Program-made: the position numbers and the translations under genes
Notes under the pieces: model-generated
Database searches by the model: none
Seen by the model: the letters and a program-made list of their open reading frames with translations, nothing else
Told to the model about the DNA's origin: nothing
NCBI GenBank assembly: GCA_036172455.1
Contig: JAXKVY010000001.1
Coordinates: 124,001 to 188,000, forward strand
DNA: 64,000 nt
From: Candidatus Izemoplasma sp.
Lineage (GTDB): Bacteria > Bacillota_I > Bacilli_A > Izemoplasmatales > Izemoplasmataceae
Reading direction: 5' to 3'
Shown: positions 44,775 through 59,608 of the stretch, in pieces
How positions within the stretch are numbered: the stretch's first letter is position 1
How the letters are laid out: the number at the start of each line of letters is the position of its first letter

Positions 44775-46685
44775 ATGTTAAAACAATTAAAGAATTCATT
44801 AATTAAAACGCCACTTCTTAATAATCGCGGAAGTGTTCTTAGTGTTGCGTTAATTATTATCACTGTATTGACTTTTAGCGTATCTACTATTACGCAATTA
44901 TCAATTAATCTAGCGGGTCAGACAAATATACAACTTGATAATGTCAATTCTGAAAATACCGCTAAAGCCTTAATTGATCAATCAATTGCTGAATGGGAAG
45001 CTTACTTATCCGATGACGCAACAGAAGGCGATTATGATGGGTTTAATTCAACAGAAATACCGCGTATTTTAAATGCTTACAATGTTGTAGTAACCGATGA
45101 AACAAATAACTTGGATGGTTATGGCGTAAGTGGTGAAGCGGAGAGTCGTGCATATAAATTTAGTTATACATTAAGTAATGGTAACGTCATTTACAAATAT
45201 GGTTATGTCTCTAATTATGGTACTACTACTGAAAACTTAAATCCGTTTAATTATCAAATAGGAACTAACGGATCCTTGGTAATGAATGGAGGATATTATG
45301 TTGATCCCCAAGCTACTGAATTACGATTATTTGGTAATAACGTATGGGTATCACAAATGGCACCTTATGAAATTAATGGAGGTCCTAATCAGGCTGTAAC
45401 AGGGGATAATATTGAGGAAAACTACCCCTATTTAAATAATCAAACAATTGTTTATGAAAATAATGGATATGACTACTGTTCGGCTAATTGCTATGCGACT
45501 AGTAACAATAATCCATTTGTGTTCAATACAAACTTGTTTAATGATCCATTTGTGATCAATACAAACTTGTTTAATCCTGTTGATGAAAATGCACCATTTA
45601 ATAGTGGACAAAATGATTCGACAAACATTGTAAATTTCTTTGGGGACTTTAGTTATCAAGATTACTTTGTTACTTTCATTAATGAAGAGGCACCAACGGG
45701 TGTTGATACGATTAGTGCTACATGGAATAACTTAGAACAAACTATTTTAGATAATAGTTGCTTGTTAGGTAGCTCTGCGCAAGGTGGATGTAGTGAATCC
45801 AATAATAATGGTAACTATGGTGGTAGCTGGCTAGAAGGCTTTTTAGGTGCCGGTAACGGCAGAGGTAACGGCAGAGGTAACGGCAGAGGTAATGGTGGAG
45901 GAAATAGCAATCAATATAATTGGGATGCTGACTTCCCGTTTATTAATATTACTGATGTTGCCAATAATATTGATTATAATTTTAAAGGTAAAAAAACTGT
46001 ATCCAGGGTATATGATGGTAATTTAACGTTATCCTCTTTGAATATGAGTATTAGCGATACAGAATCTCTCGTTGTACTAGGTGATTTGACACTTGATTCA
46101 ATTGGACGTTATACGGGTACTACTGTTGTATTTGGTGATTTATATTTAACTGGAAGTTCCATCGACTTTGAAGGGTCGCTACTTGTTTTAGGTGAAACAT
46201 TTATCGATTTTGATGATTTTGAAGGTATTGAAATCAATGGTAAAAATGCGGGATTTACTTTAATGGCCTATGATAACATCCATTTCATAAGCCACTATGA
46301 ATCACATAATTCTTCTAGTATTGCACCTGAAACTGCCATGTTTATTTATACTGAAGAATCCATCTTCATTGATGCAGTTAATTCTAGATTAAATATGAAA
46401 GGCTCTTTGTTTGCACGAGCAGCTGGAAATTCAGGTAATCCCATTTTTATGGAAGATGAAAGTGGCAATCCAATAGAAGGTATAGTGATTAATAGCTTTT
46501 ATGGGTATGTGAATAATTCTGGAAATACGATTCCAGGTAGTAGTTTGGATGCTCACCGATTCCGTATTGGCGTCATCGCAAACGGTAATTATCAAGATCG
46601 TTTTATTAATATCCCAACATTTGATAGTGTTATTCAAACGTTTGGTGTGTATACATTTGAAGAAAGCGAGTTTGCTTATGAATAA
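44775..46685 (+). CDS. large PilX-like pilus-associated surface protein with low-complexity repeats
   Basis: 636 residues. PilX-type start: NNRGSVLSVALIIITVLTF with the cleavage-like Gly19, one membrane helix of about 20 residues and an extracellular body. Two sequence oddities: an 11-residue repeat (PFVFNTNLFND, PFVINTNLFNP, about residues 247-268) and a GNGR repeat (GNGRGNGRGNGRGNGGGN, about 360-377). The C-terminal half is strand-rich with a repeating LVVLGDLTLDS / VVFGDLYLTGS / LLVLGETFIDF pattern, suggesting a beta-helix-like fold. Candidate tip adhesin. Its ATG follows AAAGGAGG. No catalytic motif recognised. Confidence 0.65.
   Translation: MLKQLKNSLIKTPLLNNRGSVLSVALIIITVLTFSVSTITQLSINLAGQTNIQLDNVNSENTAKALIDQSIAEWEAYLSDDATEGDYDGFNSTEIPRILNAYNVVVTDETNNLDGYGVSGEAESRAYKFSYTLSNGNVIYKYGYVSNYGTTTENLNPFNYQIGTNGSLVMNGGYYVDPQATELRLFGNNVWVSQMAPYEINGGPNQAVTGDNIEENYPYLNNQTIVYENNGYDYCSANCYATSNNNPFVFNTNLFNDPFVINTNLFNPVDENAPFNSGQNDSTNIVNFFGDFSYQDYFVTFINEEAPTGVDTISATWNNLEQTILDNSCLLGSSAQGGCSESNNNGNYGGSWLEGFLGAGNGRGNGRGNGRGNGGGNSNQYNWDADFPFINITDVANNIDYNFKGKKTVSRVYDGNLTLSSLNMSISDTESLVVLGDLTLDSIGRYTGTTVVFGDLYLTGSSIDFEGSLLVLGETFIDFDDFEGIEINGKNAGFTLMAYDNIHFISHYESHNSSSIAPETAMFIYTEESIFIDAVNSRLNMKGSLFARAAGNSGNPIFMEDESGNPIEGIVINSFYGYVNNSGNTIPGSSLDAHRFRIGVIANGNYQDRFINIPTFDSVIQTFGVYTFEESEFAYE
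45511..45576 (+). repeat. two tandem 33-base repeats inside the PilX-like gene
   Basis: Units 45511-45543 and 45544-45576 differ at only a few positions and encode adjacent copies of an 11-residue repeat. Confidence 0.85.
45852..45899 (+). repeat. 12-base tandem repeat encoding GNGR
   Basis: Three exact copies of GGTAACGGCAGA followed by one diverged copy, in frame. Copy number could vary by slippage without breaking the frame. Confidence 0.88.
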
Positions 46686-51258: not shown

Positions 51259-52347
51259 TTACTTCTTATAGTTTTTATTATAAAACTTCTTCTTAATGAC
51301 TACAACTTTTTTTCGTTTATTTCTAACGTTTACTTCAAGTTTGGTTCCTAATTTATCATATGGACGATCTACCATGGCCAAAGCAACTGTTTTACCTGTG
51401 CTTGGTGATTTGTACCCTGTTGTAACAAAGCCAACTAAGGTATCCTCATGATAGACATCATATCCGTGTCGAATAATACCTTTGTCTAGTAATTCAAGTC
51501 CAACGATTCGGCGTTTAGTTTTGGTTTCTTTTTGTTTCTTTAACACGTCACGTCCAATGAACGGTTCAGCATCAAGTTTGACGGCAAAATGATACCCTGC
51601 TTCTAGAGGTGTAATCGATTGACTTAATTCATTTCCATATAGCGGTAAATTAACTTCAAATCGTAGCGTGTCTCTAGCGCCTAGGCCAACCGGTAAGATA
51701 TCATCGTTTCCTATATCTAATAATTTATCCCACAACGCAACAATTTCTTGATGTGTTCCATAAATTTCAAACCCATCTTCTCCAGTATAACCCGTACGTG
51801 AAACCATATAGATACGGTTATCGAGTAAGACGTTTTCAAAATGAAAGAATTCTATTAAGTTTAAATCAAACTGGGTGAGTTTTTGTAAAATCCCTTCTGC
51901 TTTGGGCCCTTGTAATGCCAGTTGACTATAATAATTTGATTCGTTTGTTACTGTACAGTGAAAGGTATTCTGTTTAGTGATCCATTCAAAGTCCTTGTCA
52001 ACATTCGATGCATTCACGACCAGTAAATAGTGTTTATTATGAAACTTGTAAACAAGAAGATCATCAACAACCCCACCGTCTTCATAACACATCATACCGT
52101 ATAATACTTCTTTGCCACTCATTGATAACACATCGTTTGTAAAAAGATAATCAACACACTGTGTTGCTTCGTCACCTTTGATTGTTATTTCTCCCATGTG
52201 TGACACATCAAACAACCCACACGATTCTCGAACTTTTTGGTGTTCTTCTGTAATGGATGAGTAAACAATCGGCATATCATATCCAGCAAACTCAGCCATT
52301 TTAGCATCTAAAGCAATGTGCTTTTTATGCAGTACTGTTTCTTTCAT
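51259..52347 (-). CDS. gcvT: aminomethyltransferase (glycine cleavage T protein)
   Basis: Transfers the methylene from GcvH to tetrahydrofolate, releasing ammonia. About 362 residues. Features: AGYDMPIVYSSITEEHQKVRESCGLFDVSHMGEI at the start (quoted in parts: the folate-binding Asp-Met segment and DVSHMGEI), GYTGEDGFEIYG and LGARDTLRFEVNLPLYGNEL. Start at ATG 52347 behind AAAGGAG; an upstream ATG frame extension is discounted. First gene of the gcv operon. Confidence 0.96.
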   Translation of the reverse strand: MKETVLHKKHIALDAKMAEFAGYDMPIVYSSITEEHQKVRESCGLFDVSHMGEITIKGDEATQCVDYLFTNDVLSMSGKEVLYGMMCYEDGGVVDDLLVYKFHNKHYLLVVNASNVDKDFEWITKQNTFHCTVTNESNYYSQLALQGPKAEGILQKLTQFDLNLIEFFHFENVLLDNRIYMVSRTGYTGEDGFEIYGTHQEIVALWDKLLDIGNDDILPVGLGARDTLRFEVNLPLYGNELSQSITPLEAGYHFAVKLDAEPFIGRDVLKKQKETKTKRRIVGLELLDKGIIRHGYDVYHEDTLVGFVTTGYKSPSTGKTVALAMVDRPYDKLGTKLEVNVRNKRKKVVVIKKKFYNKNYKK

Positions 52348-52403
52348 ATCAAGTCTCCTTTCGCGTAATAATAAAAGCGTTTTCACTTAGTATTAAAAAT
52401 GAT

Positions 52404-52472: not shown

Positions 52473-52499
52473 AAAAGGAGCAAATATTTCTGCTCCTTA
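52473..52499 (-). terminator. terminator of the double-HU membrane protein gene
   Basis: AAGGAGCA / TGCTCCTT with an 8-base loop and a following T run on the minus strand, overlapping the gene's stop codon. Confidence 0.82.
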
Positions 52500-53903
52500 T
52501 TCTTCGTTTACTTTATCACCAAAATCGTCATTAAATCGGAATCTTACTTGGTGATGAGCTGGTACAACAATCGGTTCCTGCGTTTGTGGATTAACCGCTT
52601 CTTTTTCAGGCATTTCTATGGTTGTGAAATGACCCATTTCACCAAAGTCTACATCATCTCTATTAACAAGTGTTTCTTGGACAACTTGTGCAAGGGCTTT
52701 GAGAAACTTGTTTGATTTATTTTTACTAATATCAGTGTTATCTGATATATAATTAATAATATCTGTTTTCGTTCTGGTTTTTTTCTTCTTCGTTTTCTTT
52801 TTCGGTGCTGGTTTTTTCTTTTCAGATTTTTTATCTGTTTTTTTAGGAGTAGACTTTATTGTTTTAGGTGAAGACGTTTTATCTGGTTTCTCATTTTCTG
52901 GTGTTTTAGCGTCATCTTTATTCCCTTTTTTCTCCGTGACATCTTTTTTAGTATCATCCTTATCCGTTACTTCTTCTTTAGGCTCTTTTCGTAAACTCTC
53001 TTTTGCTTGTTCTCCTGGAGTTTCATCTTTCGGTAACTTGGGATCAGTAATTTTATCTTCAGTAGGAACTGGTATTGTTTCTTCAGTTTCTTTGGTGTCT
53101 TCAGAGTCAAACTCTTGTAAATAGGAAGGATAAGGAATAAATTCAACATCCATTTCATCATCAAACTGAACAGGCATGATTTTACCAAATTGATAGAGTT
53201 CTAAGGTGTCACCTGCTATTAATTGTTCAGTGAATATTTCTAATATGGTGTTCACAAGTATCCGTGAATCATCCATAGATATATCATGATGTTCAGATAT
53301 ATGTGAGATTAAACCTGTTTTATTCATTGGACCTTTGTTGTTTAAGATGGCTTCTTTTTCTGCTTTTTCTTTTGCGGCTTCAACTTCTTTACGCTCCTGT
53401 TCACGTTGTTCTAATAAAGCTTCTTTTTGTGCTTTTTTTGCTTCTTGTTTGCGTTTTCTTTCTTGTTTTTTGCGCTCAATAAATGATAAAGTCGCTTCTT
53501 TTTTATCGACAAACCATGTCTTAATTGAAGAATTTTTATTGGTTTCTTTCCGCTTAAACTTCTCGTAGATATTTTCACGATCAACAGTATCTTCTTTTGC
53601 TTCTTCTGCAGCTATTTGCGCCTTATATTCTTCAACAGTTAATAACTTCGACTCTTTATAAGCTAAAGAATAAAAAATACGTCCTGCAATAAGAAAACCA
53701 ACGGTCCCAATTAATAATGGATACAATGAGTATTGATACAGTATGAATCCATCTTCTACTTGACACATATAAGAATCAGAACAATTGATTGCACCATTGA
53801 TCATCGCAAAAAATAAGTCAATAATAAATAGAAAGAAAAAGATTCCAGCAAATATAAACATAACTTTCATTAGTTTCTCATAAAGTAATTGTAGTTTCGA
53901 CAT
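52497..53903 (-). CDS. membrane-anchored protein with two HU-like DNA-binding domains
   Basis: 468 residues. Two membrane helices (about 14-36 and 54-80) flank a short loop with Cys41 and Cys47; positive residues at both ends put N- and C-termini in the cytoplasm. A charged helix/coiled coil follows (about 84-190, Lys/Glu/Gln-rich). Residues 193-257 resemble an HU core (NKTGLISHISEHHDIS, ELYQFGKI) without the DNA-binding arm. A Lys/Glu/Pro linker (about 265-375) ends in a strongly basic run. Residues 377-468 form a full HU/IHF-like domain: TKTDIINYISDNTDIS, then FGEMGHFTTIEM, the arm segment with NPQTQEPIVVPAHHQVRFRF. HU proteins bend DNA as dimers. I infer a tether between nucleoid and membrane. 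Own promoter and terminator. Confidence 0.75.
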   Translation of the reverse strand: MSKLQLLYEKLMKVMFIFAGIFFFLFIIDLFFAMINGAINCSDSYMCQVEDGFILYQYSLYPLLIGTVGFLIAGRIFYSLAYKESKLLTVEEYKAQIAAEEAKEDTVDRENIYEKFKRKETNKNSSIKTWFVDKKEATLSFIERKKQERKRKQEAKKAQKEALLEQREQERKEVEAAKEKAEKEAILNNKGPMNKTGLISHISEHHDISMDDSRILVNTILEIFTEQLIAGDTLELYQFGKIMPVQFDDEMDVEFIPYPSYLQEFDSEDTKETEETIPVPTEDKITDPKLPKDETPGEQAKESLRKEPKEEVTDKDDTKKDVTEKKGNKDDAKTPENEKPDKTSSPKTIKSTPKKTDKKSEKKKPAPKKKTKKKKTRTKTDIINYISDNTDISKNKSNKFLKALAQVVQETLVNRDDVDFGEMGHFTTIEMPEKEAVNPQTQEPIVVPAHHQVRFRFNDDFGDKVNEE

Positions 53904-53975: not shown

Positions 53976-54629
53976 TTATATGATTTTACTTGTAAAATTC
54001 TCGTGAATTATGTAACTATCAAAGTATTGTGTTGTTAGCGCAACATCTTTTATCAAGCAACTTTCTCCTGTAAATGAAATAATAAACATGAGTAACTTTC
54101 GTGTTGACGGTGTGATTTTTGTTCGGTCAGTATCACTTGTTGTGCTACCAAATGGTCCATTGTCATCTTCATAAACGGGAATATTACTAATATTTAATTT
54201 GCCTCGACCAATTCCATGAAAATCATCATCTTCTTTTCCAATCCGTATGAGCACATCCCCTTCGATTGCTTCTTTATTTAACATCGCGACACTTTTACGT
54301 GTTTCTAGTGAGATAACATTACCAATATCAACAATATTATTGATTCGATATAATGGATTGCCTTTAACAATACGTCTATATAACGATTCTACGGCGAGAC
54401 GGTAGCGGCTCGGATCCTTACCAAGTGTTTTATAGGCATCCCGTCCTTCTTTAATAATATCCAAATTGATAACCTCTTGTATATCATATTGTTCAAAAAT
54501 ATCTCGCTCTAGATAATGTATTGCGGCATCAAGTTTGTGAGATTTTTCTACTACAACATCTGCCTCGATTACAGCCATATGAAAATCTGGTAATTTCTTT
54601 TTAAGTGCACTATCGATTGTAATATTCAT
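53976..54629 (-). CDS. stand-alone B3/B4 tRNA-binding-domain protein
   Basis: 217 residues matching the B3/B4 domain found in the beta subunit of phenylalanyl-tRNA synthetase. Conserved region: AYKTLGKDPSRYRLAVESLYRRI near residues 64-86, NIVDIGNVISL, then the late GPFGSTTSDTDRT segment. In PheRS this domain contributes to editing; free versions may edit or bind amino-acid analogues, but their role is not established. No catalytic residue can be named from this sequence. Only 17 bases separate its start from the ackA terminator hairpin. Confidence 0.85.
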   Translation of the reverse strand: MNITIDSALKKKLPDFHMAVIEADVVVEKSHKLDAAIHYLERDIFEQYDIQEVINLDIIKEGRDAYKTLGKDPSRYRLAVESLYRRIVKGNPLYRINNIVDIGNVISLETRKSVAMLNKEAIEGDVLIRIGKEDDDFHGIGRGKLNISNIPVYEDDNGPFGSTTSDTDRTKITPSTRKLLMFIISFTGESCLIKDVALTTQYFDSYIIHENFTSKII

Positions 54630-57171: not shown

Positions 57172-57199
57172 TTGTAAAATACAGCAAATGTATTATAAT
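57172..57199 (+). promoter_or_regulatory. promoter of the GGDEF/HD-GYP gene
   Basis: TTGTAA (57172-57177), 16 bases, TATAAT (57194-57199). A short leader of about 15 bases leads to the AAGGTG site. Confidence 0.6.
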
Positions 57200-57220
57200 A
57201 GATTTAACAAGGTGATGTAT

Positions 57221-59608
57221 ATGTTTTTTGAAATAATTTTACCATTCATAAGAAATATTGCTTTACTCATGAGTTTATCTATTTTATATTCAATATATTC
57301 AATTGACTCACGCGTACCTACATATGTAAGGAAACTGATAATGGGGCTCGCTGTATCTATTATCGGATTTATCATTATGAGTTATCCTTACGAAACAGCT
57401 CCGGGCATCTTATTTGATGGTCGGAGTATCATCATGATTACAAGTGGTATGTATTTAGGTCCGTTACCGACCATAATTGGTGGGTTATCAATGAGTATTT
57501 ATCGCTTAGTCATTGGCGGATCAGGGACAATACCAGGATTAATCGAAATTATCTTACCAGGTATTGTTGGTCTTATTTGGCGAACAAAGCGCTTAAAAAC
57601 ACAACAAAATACGTATGAGCACATCACCATACTTGAACAATATCTATTGATATTTTTTACACAAGCCGCGGTATTACTAGTTGGATACCTTTTTCCTAAT
57701 CAAATTCCCTATGAAATTATTAACCAGATATTCTTGCCAATCATGATTATCCATCCACTTGGAGGGCTAGGGATATCATTATTCATGTTGGTAAATAGGA
57801 GAAACTTTTTTACAAATAAAAGAATTAATGAAACAAAAATTAAATATGATACCATTTTCAATAATACAAGTGCTGCTTCTTTTTTATATGACCCGGAAAC
57901 TAAGAAATACACTGATGTTAATCAAACAGCAATCGACTTATATGGGTACAATTATGAAGAGTTTTTGACTTTGGGTATTAACGACTTGAATCCCCTACCT
58001 AACTCTGAGATTGATCGGCAAATTGAAAAAGCTTTAAATAATGAAAAAAATTACTTTATCGCAAAACATATTACCAAACATGGACATGTCATTACAATTG
58101 AAACAAATACTAGTGTTGTTGAGTTAGATAATAAAAAACAATTATTTTTATCGACAAGAGATATCTCTCATCGCGTTGAAAAACAACACCAATTCGAAAC
58201 CATGGAATTACAACTTAATAAAACAGCATTATCAAAAATTCATGATGGGGTTATTTTAACCGATCAATATGGCGAGATTAAACTTGTTAATAAGCCCGCT
58301 AAAAATATGATCAATCCACGACAATCATTGCTTAATCGTTCCCTAAATGAAGCGATCCGTTTTTACTTTAAAAACACCATTAATATCTCAAGTATTCTAG
58401 AAAAAATTTCTAATGACTTAGAATCGATACAGTTAGATCAGGTTACTATCATTCAAGGCGAGACAAATAAAAATTTATGTGTTACATTGACCATTTCACC
58501 GTTAGTTAATCAGAGTCATGATTTAACCGGCTTTATTTTGATTATGCGGGATATTACATTAGAAAAAGAACAATATGACAAAATCGAATTCATTAGTCAA
58601 CACGATGCGGTCACATCACTATATAATCGTTTCTTCTTAGACGAAGAATTGAAGCGGCTCAATACAAAACGACAACTACCGCTCACTTTAATTATAGGAG
58701 ATGTCAACGGACTAAAACTTGTGAATGATGCGTTTGGACATAATGAAGGAGATGAACTTCTTATTGAAATCTCTAAGATACTTCAAAAAGCATTGCGCGC
58801 TGAAGATATTTTAGGTCGTTGGGGTGGTGATGAGTTCTTAATTATTCTTCCTCAAACCACATATCAAGATGCACAAACTATCGTTCACAGAATTCATGAT
58901 TTATGTCAAAAATCATTCTATAGTACAATTACCCCTAGTATTTCACTTGGGGTAGGAAGTAAAACCAATATGTATGAATCAATTGATGATGTAATCGTTT
59001 TGGCAGAACAAGAAATGTATGCTGAAAAAACGAAATCTGGACCGATTATGCGTAACCAAACATATCACCGACTATGGGATAAATTAGAGGAATTAAATCT
59101 CGATTTCGCAGACCATCATAAGCGATGTGCAAAACTAGCAGAAAGATTCGGCACATATTTAAATCTTTCTGTGAAAGAAATCGAAGCTTTAAAAAAACTT
59201 GCTAATAACCACGATATCGGTAAGCTAACCATGGATCAAGCAATCTTAAATCAAGGTTACTCAACATCAGAAAATACAACCGATTTAAAACTGCATGTGG
59301 AAAATGGCTACCGGATATTAAACGCCTTACCAGATTATGCCGATATCTCCAAATCTGTATTACATCATCATGAAAACTTTGATGGGTCAGGTTATCCAGA
59401 AGGATTAAAACGTGAAGCCATTCCATACTTATCACGGATTCTAAGAATAATAGAAGCCTATGATAGCATGGTTCATGATAATAACTATGGTAAGGCTAAA
59501 GATCAAAGTACAGCAATAAACGAACTAAAGGACAACTCTGGGAAATATTATGACCCAACATTAACCGACGCCTTTATTCAGATGATTACTCAATCAAAAA
59601 AGACATAA
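57221..59608 (+). CDS. membrane 5TM-PAS-GGDEF-HD-GYP c-di-GMP enzyme
   Basis: 795 residues from ATG 57221, 6 bases after AAGGTG. An N-terminal LytS-type 5TM receptor region (about residues 10-200; GRSIIMITSGMYLGPLPTI and RLVIGGSG) is followed by two PAS-like domains. The GGDEF domain has an intact GGDEF near residue 535, preceded by RAED, an inhibitory I-site five residues before it. The HD-GYP domain has H664-D665 (HDIGK) and HHENFDGSGYPEGL (716-729). Both synthase and phosphodiesterase signatures are present, so net activity cannot be told. It is the only c-di-GMP turnover gene in the window and sits downstream of the pilus locus, whose PilB has an MshEN domain. Confidence 0.93.
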   Translation: MFFEIILPFIRNIALLMSLSILYSIYSIDSRVPTYVRKLIMGLAVSIIGFIIMSYPYETAPGILFDGRSIIMITSGMYLGPLPTIIGGLSMSIYRLVIGGSGTIPGLIEIILPGIVGLIWRTKRLKTQQNTYEHITILEQYLLIFFTQAAVLLVGYLFPNQIPYEIINQIFLPIMIIHPLGGLGISLFMLVNRRNFFTNKRINETKIKYDTIFNNTSAASFLYDPETKKYTDVNQTAIDLYGYNYEEFLTLGINDLNPLPNSEIDRQIEKALNNEKNYFIAKHITKHGHVITIETNTSVVELDNKKQLFLSTRDISHRVEKQHQFETMELQLNKTALSKIHDGVILTDQYGEIKLVNKPAKNMINPRQSLLNRSLNEAIRFYFKNTINISSILEKISNDLESIQLDQVTIIQGETNKNLCVTLTISPLVNQSHDLTGFILIMRDITLEKEQYDKIEFISQHDAVTSLYNRFFLDEELKRLNTKRQLPLTLIIGDVNGLKLVNDAFGHNEGDELLIEISKILQKALRAEDILGRWGGDEFLIILPQTTYQDAQTIVHRIHDLCQKSFYSTITPSISLGVGSKTNMYESIDDVIVLAEQEMYAEKTKSGPIMRNQTYHRLWDKLEELNLDFADHHKRCAKLAERFGTYLNLSVKEIEALKKLANNHDIGKLTMDQAILNQGYSTSENTTDLKLHVENGYRILNALPDYADISKSVLHHHENFDGSGYPEGLKREAIPYLSRILRIIEAYDSMVHDNNYGKAKDQSTAINELKDNSGKYYDPTLTDAFIQMITQSKKT

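Follow-up and report, generated by a model that had tools for sequence, protein, structure and literature searches.

The window, the 64,000-nucleotide stretch of DNA from Candidatus Izemoplasma sp., a wall-less marine bacterium, that was analysed, carries on its reverse strand a gene (52497-53903) that starts with ATG and codes for a 468-residue protein with a predicted N-terminal membrane anchor and two HU-like domains, hereafter TM-HU. Upstream on the same strand lies the conserved gene of a stand-alone B3/4-domain protein (53976-54629; PF03483), a domain that is otherwise a part of PheRS beta. Downstream, also on the reverse strand, is the conserved gcvT (51259-52386), the first gene of a glycine-cleavage block. 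An intrinsic terminator (52475-52498, reverse strand) is positioned at the TM-HU stop codon.

The first 95 residues of TM-HU (53619-53903) form a family-specific membrane module composed of two transmembrane helices and a short outside loop. In the AlphaFold2 model helix 1 spans residues 3-35 (53799-53897), being hydrophobic near 14-32, and helix 2 spans residues 54-85 (53649-53744), being hydrophobic near 63-81. The loop between them (residues 36-53; 53745-53798) carries Cys41 and Cys47 in a predicted short beta hairpin. A long charged helix, likely a coiled coil, is modelled at residues 134-188 (53340-53504), where the earlier note had read a charged coiled region. It is followed by HU1 (residues 193-266; 53106-53327), an HU fold without the DNA-embracing arm, and by the Lys/Glu/Pro linker that the note had also described (residues 267-376; 52776-53105), disordered in the model at 267-365 and ending in a strongly basic patch of net charge +12 (residues 357-376; 52776-52835). 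This patch directly precedes HU2 (residues 377-466; 52506-52775), a complete HU domain including the arm, with the signature SKNK...AVNPQT...VPAHxxVRxRF.

Profile searches and predicted structures support the presence of two genuine HU folds in TM-HU. The whole protein matches the Pfam model PF00216 with 103.7 bits (E 6e-30; cut-off 22.4), HU2 being hit at 378-466, and HU1 also exceeds this cut-off, scoring 32.7 bits when the whole genome is scanned and 34.1 bits as an isolated domain. The PF00216 scan of the window's genome identified TM-HU and one ordinary 90-residue HU encoded elsewhere, with no further match. HU-HIG (PF18291) gives 28.6 bits for TM-HU, slightly above its cut-off of 26.2, but PF00216 is far better. 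The HU-CCDC81 model PF18175 remains below its 35-bit cut-off, with 32.8 bits for the whole protein and 24.3 bits for HU1 alone. Pfam revealed no wHTH, Ig or Gly-rich partner domain of the HU-HIG type and no SPOR domain in the window protein or 15 aligned members. The AlphaFold2 model of the full protein, built on an 11-sequence alignment, has a pTM of 0.25, so that the domain folds can be read from it but not their mutual placement. HU1 shows the element order of HU, helix-helix-three strands-helix, at about 195-266 (pLDDT about 80-87; mean 85 when folded alone). HU2 is a complete fold at 379-465 (pLDDT about 83-87) with arm strands 434-437 and 444-447, and linker residues 267-365 fall below pLDDT 50. 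Foldseek matches of the full model and of HU1 alone are all solved HU/IHF structures (best E 6.6e-7 and 5e-5, respectively). The structure prediction that the earlier note had proposed for its two HU-like segments thus returns the HU fold in both, and the full, armed C-terminal domain is recovered as described. The arm-less domain is equally real, but its boundary at residue 257 was drawn too short, since a C-terminal helix extends HU1 to about 266.

The membrane module displays a consistent charge pattern. In the window protein the N-terminal tail is +2, the inter-helix loop is -3, and three Lys/Arg residues occur within 15 residues past helix 2. All 14 orthologues examined have two transmembrane helices and a tail of +2 to +4, the loop being neutral to acidic in nearly all of them, with early Lys/Arg after helix 2. 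From this distribution the positive-inside rule leads to a predicted topology with both termini in the cytoplasm, where the HU domains would be located; the prediction draws on hydropathy and charge. Together with the AlphaFold2 helices it supports the previous reading of two hydrophobic N-terminal helices with the remainder of the protein cytoplasmic. Thirteen of 15 membrane modules have the Cys pair in this loop.

Of 49 genomes from the window's own family, in the order Izemoplasmatales, 20 were found to carry the module. It was found in none of the 41 genomes from the order's other two families and, in a sample of 394 genomes across the class, in no member of another family; a weak match at E 1.4e-4 in genome G033, within a frame of 689 aa, is regarded as chance. 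A twenty-first genome, G002, holds the C-terminal half of TM-HU at a contig end. A profile scan of genome contigs identified 12 relatives of TM-HU, and a single-protein scan of genome contigs none. Named genomes among the matches are those of Candidatus Izimaplasma HR2 and Candidatus Izemoplasma acidinucleici, and a further orthologue (L043:8954-10489) belongs to a genome taken as that of the cultured Xianfuyuplasma coldseepsis zrk13. Many family members lack the gene, so that the group as a whole can do without its function. Nearly all genomes with TM-HU also code for a separate ordinary HU, indicating that TM-HU is an added function; an ordinary HU was not found in G036 and G002, both incomplete genomes.

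Comparison with G002, which is of the same genus, gives dN values of 0.073 for HU2, 0.125 for HU1 as far as it is available there, and 0.50 for the linker, with dS of 1.5-1.9; gcvT, alignable over only 22 codons, was left out as a comparator. The corresponding dN/dS ratios of about 0.04, 0.07 and 0.33 are rough, dS being near saturation, but their order (HU2 < HU1 < linker) is clear. Both HU domains are under purifying selection, and the arm-less HU1 is therefore maintained.

Domain composition varies among the relatives. In the group of the window protein HU2, recognised by its SKNK-type signature, is always the last domain, and the HU2 domains of this group form one clade (98/92). The arm of HU1 is lacking in the window and in L062/G009, whereas most other orthologues have one of full length; L058 and L060 have no HU1 at all. 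HU2, not HU1, is thus the constant part of the protein. The variation or absence of HU1 among orthologues indicates that it is not required for dimerisation in general, which weakens the former proposal that the arm-less copy serves that purpose. Genome G023 has three tandem HU2-type domains in a single ORF that is truncated where its contig stops (L042:10886-12181) and a membrane module at a second contig end (L053:1-581), which may be pieces of one larger protein. In genome G015 the corresponding locus ahead of gcvT (L124:7451-7873) encodes a 140-residue protein that consists of the membrane module with its Cys pair and has no HU domain. In the divergent g3/g8 group the HU domains cluster beside ordinary HU, in a tree whose short domains support the shallower groupings. 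The orthology of this group to that of the window is supported by gene order on the gcv side and by membrane-module similarity. HR2 (L064:7298-8440) and a relative (L065:10-579) encode a further membrane protein, distinct from TM-HU, that has an HU2-type domain at its end.

SKNK-type orthologues keep in HU2 the arm-tip proline P439 (NPQT) and the basic residues K434, R454 and R456, except in G013, which has K and L at the positions of R454 and R456. Few regions of TM-HU are as strongly conserved as the NP-tipped arm and the basic residues 434, 454 and 456. At the canonical HU positions R53, R55, R58, R61 and K80 the window HU2 has I, M, K, V and R, with an extra R at 78. Its net charge is -6, values among orthologues reaching +10, and that of the window HU1 is -10. 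The negative charge of HU2 and the replacement of R53, R55 and R61 by I, M and V could weaken HU-like DNA bending; by analogy with canonical HU-DNA geometry, the arginines at 78 and 80 may replace the lost contacts. In every SKNK-type orthologue the 20-residue stretch ahead of HU2 is basic, with a charge of +3 to +12. On balance, we judge non-specific DNA binding by HU2 to be likely.

We favour, with some confidence, the hypothesis that TM-HU is a membrane-anchored nucleoid protein that ties the chromosome to the membrane; its DNA binding, dimer partners, tethering action and biological role are what we infer. The two transmembrane helices, with both termini inside, would fix the protein in the cytoplasmic membrane, and the coiled helix and disordered linker would supply reach. 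HU2 and the preceding Lys-rich patch would bind chromosomal DNA with little sequence preference, as an HU dimer formed between neighbouring TM-HU molecules or by HU2 with HU1. The outcome would be that parts of the nucleoid are held at the membrane of a wall-less cell. Chromosome tethering is a plausible function and the best-supported one, drawing on the computed HU folds, the transmembrane helices, charge topology, conservation, selection, gene position and coexistence with ordinary HU. The G015 family member, whose membrane module has no HU domain, counts against it. The possibility that TM-HU stands in for a missing ParB was rejected, as ParB is present in the genome.

The main rival explanation, which we hold to be unlikely, is that the HU domains are protein-protein modules and TM-HU a membrane scaffold or adaptor instead of a DNA tether. 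Such a protein-protein role has been proposed within the HU superfamily for its CCDC81 branch, whose models HU1 and HU2 match weakly. The loss of the HU1 arm in the window and L062/G009, the acidity of the window HU1 and the loss of three canonical DNA-contact arginines from HU2 point in the same direction. Against this reading, the domains that were scanned score far higher with PF00216 than with the CCDC81 models, the NP-tipped arm and the basic residues 434, 454 and 456 are strongly conserved, and a basic patch adjoins HU2 in all SKNK-type orthologues. A different elaboration keeps chromosome tethering and couples it to a signal: the disulfide-capable outside hairpin would sense the surroundings and alter the grip of the HU domains on the chromosome. 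We consider this improbable; if true, it would be a direct membrane-to-nucleoid link built from HU in wall-less cells.

The gene neighbourhood has to be weighed in this context. Most genomes have the order ackA, B3/4-domain gene, TM-HU, lplA-lipA fusion, gcvT, gcvH, gcvPA, gcvPB and DLD, of which the divergent g3/g8 group keeps the gcv side alone. The fusion is a single ORF between TM-HU and gcvT that resembles a lipoate-protein ligase joined to a lipoyl synthase (L055:8970-10799 and relatives); in the window it is not found at this place. TM-HU adjoins gcvT, or lplA-lipA and then gcvT, in every sufficiently flanked TM-HU genome except G008, in which one contig has the membrane module next after the B3/4 gene and an HU2 piece ends another contig with no gcv gene after it. 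A hairpin with a T run lies 3' of the stop codon in nearly all orthologues, so that TM-HU probably closes its own transcription unit. Co-transcription with the gcv genes was rejected because of these conserved intervening terminators. Rfam gave no match in the vicinity of the locus, to a glycine riboswitch or otherwise. Elsewhere in the window, a large ORF at 44775-46685 has a prepilin-like hydrophobic N-terminus and is conserved beyond the glycine-cleavage block in relatives. An 806-residue membrane protein (57188-59608) has, as read by eye, apparent PAS, GGDEF and HD-GYP parts, which would mean c-di-GMP signalling in a wall-less organism of small genome.

The recurrent proximity to gcvT and the outside Cys pair would suit a regulator that is fixed in the membrane and controls transcription of the neighbouring glycine-cleavage genes, its loop sensing the outside according to a ToxR/CadC-like logic. 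We rate this quite improbable, since HU domains as a rule bind DNA with little regard to its sequence, a terminator directly follows TM-HU in nearly all orthologues, and family members without TM-HU keep gcvT. The wider gene order is also largely conserved, so that the adjacency may be simply inherited. We give very little credit to a capture of extracellular DNA by TM-HU at the cell surface, which would fit bacteria whose Izemoplasma members degrade such DNA and grow on it (PMC8397711) but conflicts with the predicted topology, as the charge pattern in orthologues places the HU domains in the cytoplasm, the C-terminus would be inside with two transmembrane helices or with a cleaved first helix alike, and no nuclease or uptake gene was seen among the conserved neighbours.

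Membrane attachment of the bacterial chromosome is a long-standing problem, and few dedicated tether proteins are known. The wall-less bacteria of the TM-HU group are described as intermediate between Firmicutes and Mollicutes. In them a general DNA-packaging fold was apparently joined to a membrane anchor and kept under selection. As the group includes a cultured member, chromosome tethering by TM-HU is directly testable.

HU/IHF family proteins are normally soluble, basic and about 90 residues long. TM-HU shares with them (PF00216) the HU fold of both domains and, in HU2, the full NPQT-tipped arm, but has two HU domains on a membrane anchor, an arm-less HU1 and I/M/V in place of R53/R55/R61 in HU2. 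The search of the literature found no description of this architecture, in agreement with the earlier note, which knew no characterised protein of the kind; that statement has to be qualified by relatives in kind. The Bacteroidetes HU-CCDC81 proteins of Burroughs et al. 2017 (PF18174/PF18175) reportedly have two HU-superfamily domains per chain and a transmembrane helix, as TM-HU combines them, with a predicted role in chromosome partition. Their HU domains are said to come first, followed by one transmembrane helix and a periplasmic SPOR domain, whereas TM-HU has an N-terminal transmembrane pair, no SPOR domain found and its best match in PF00216. Protein p16.7 of phage phi29 also has an N-terminal transmembrane segment, a coil and a C-terminal DNA-binding domain, the latter being a prediction in TM-HU, but of unrelated fold and with a role in phage replication. 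RacA-DivIVA achieves the kind of task proposed for TM-HU, attachment of the chromosome to the membrane, but by sequence-specific DNA binding and through a partner protein at the membrane (PMC8233713). Rv3852 of Mycobacterium tuberculosis is a membrane-anchored DNA-binding nucleoid-associated protein, as proposed for TM-HU with its predicted DNA binding, but it has a single C-terminal transmembrane helix, no reported HU fold and a distribution limited to M. tuberculosis and close relatives (PMC8233713). Mycobacterial Rv3852 and the HU-CCDC81 proteins are the closest precedents for TM-HU.
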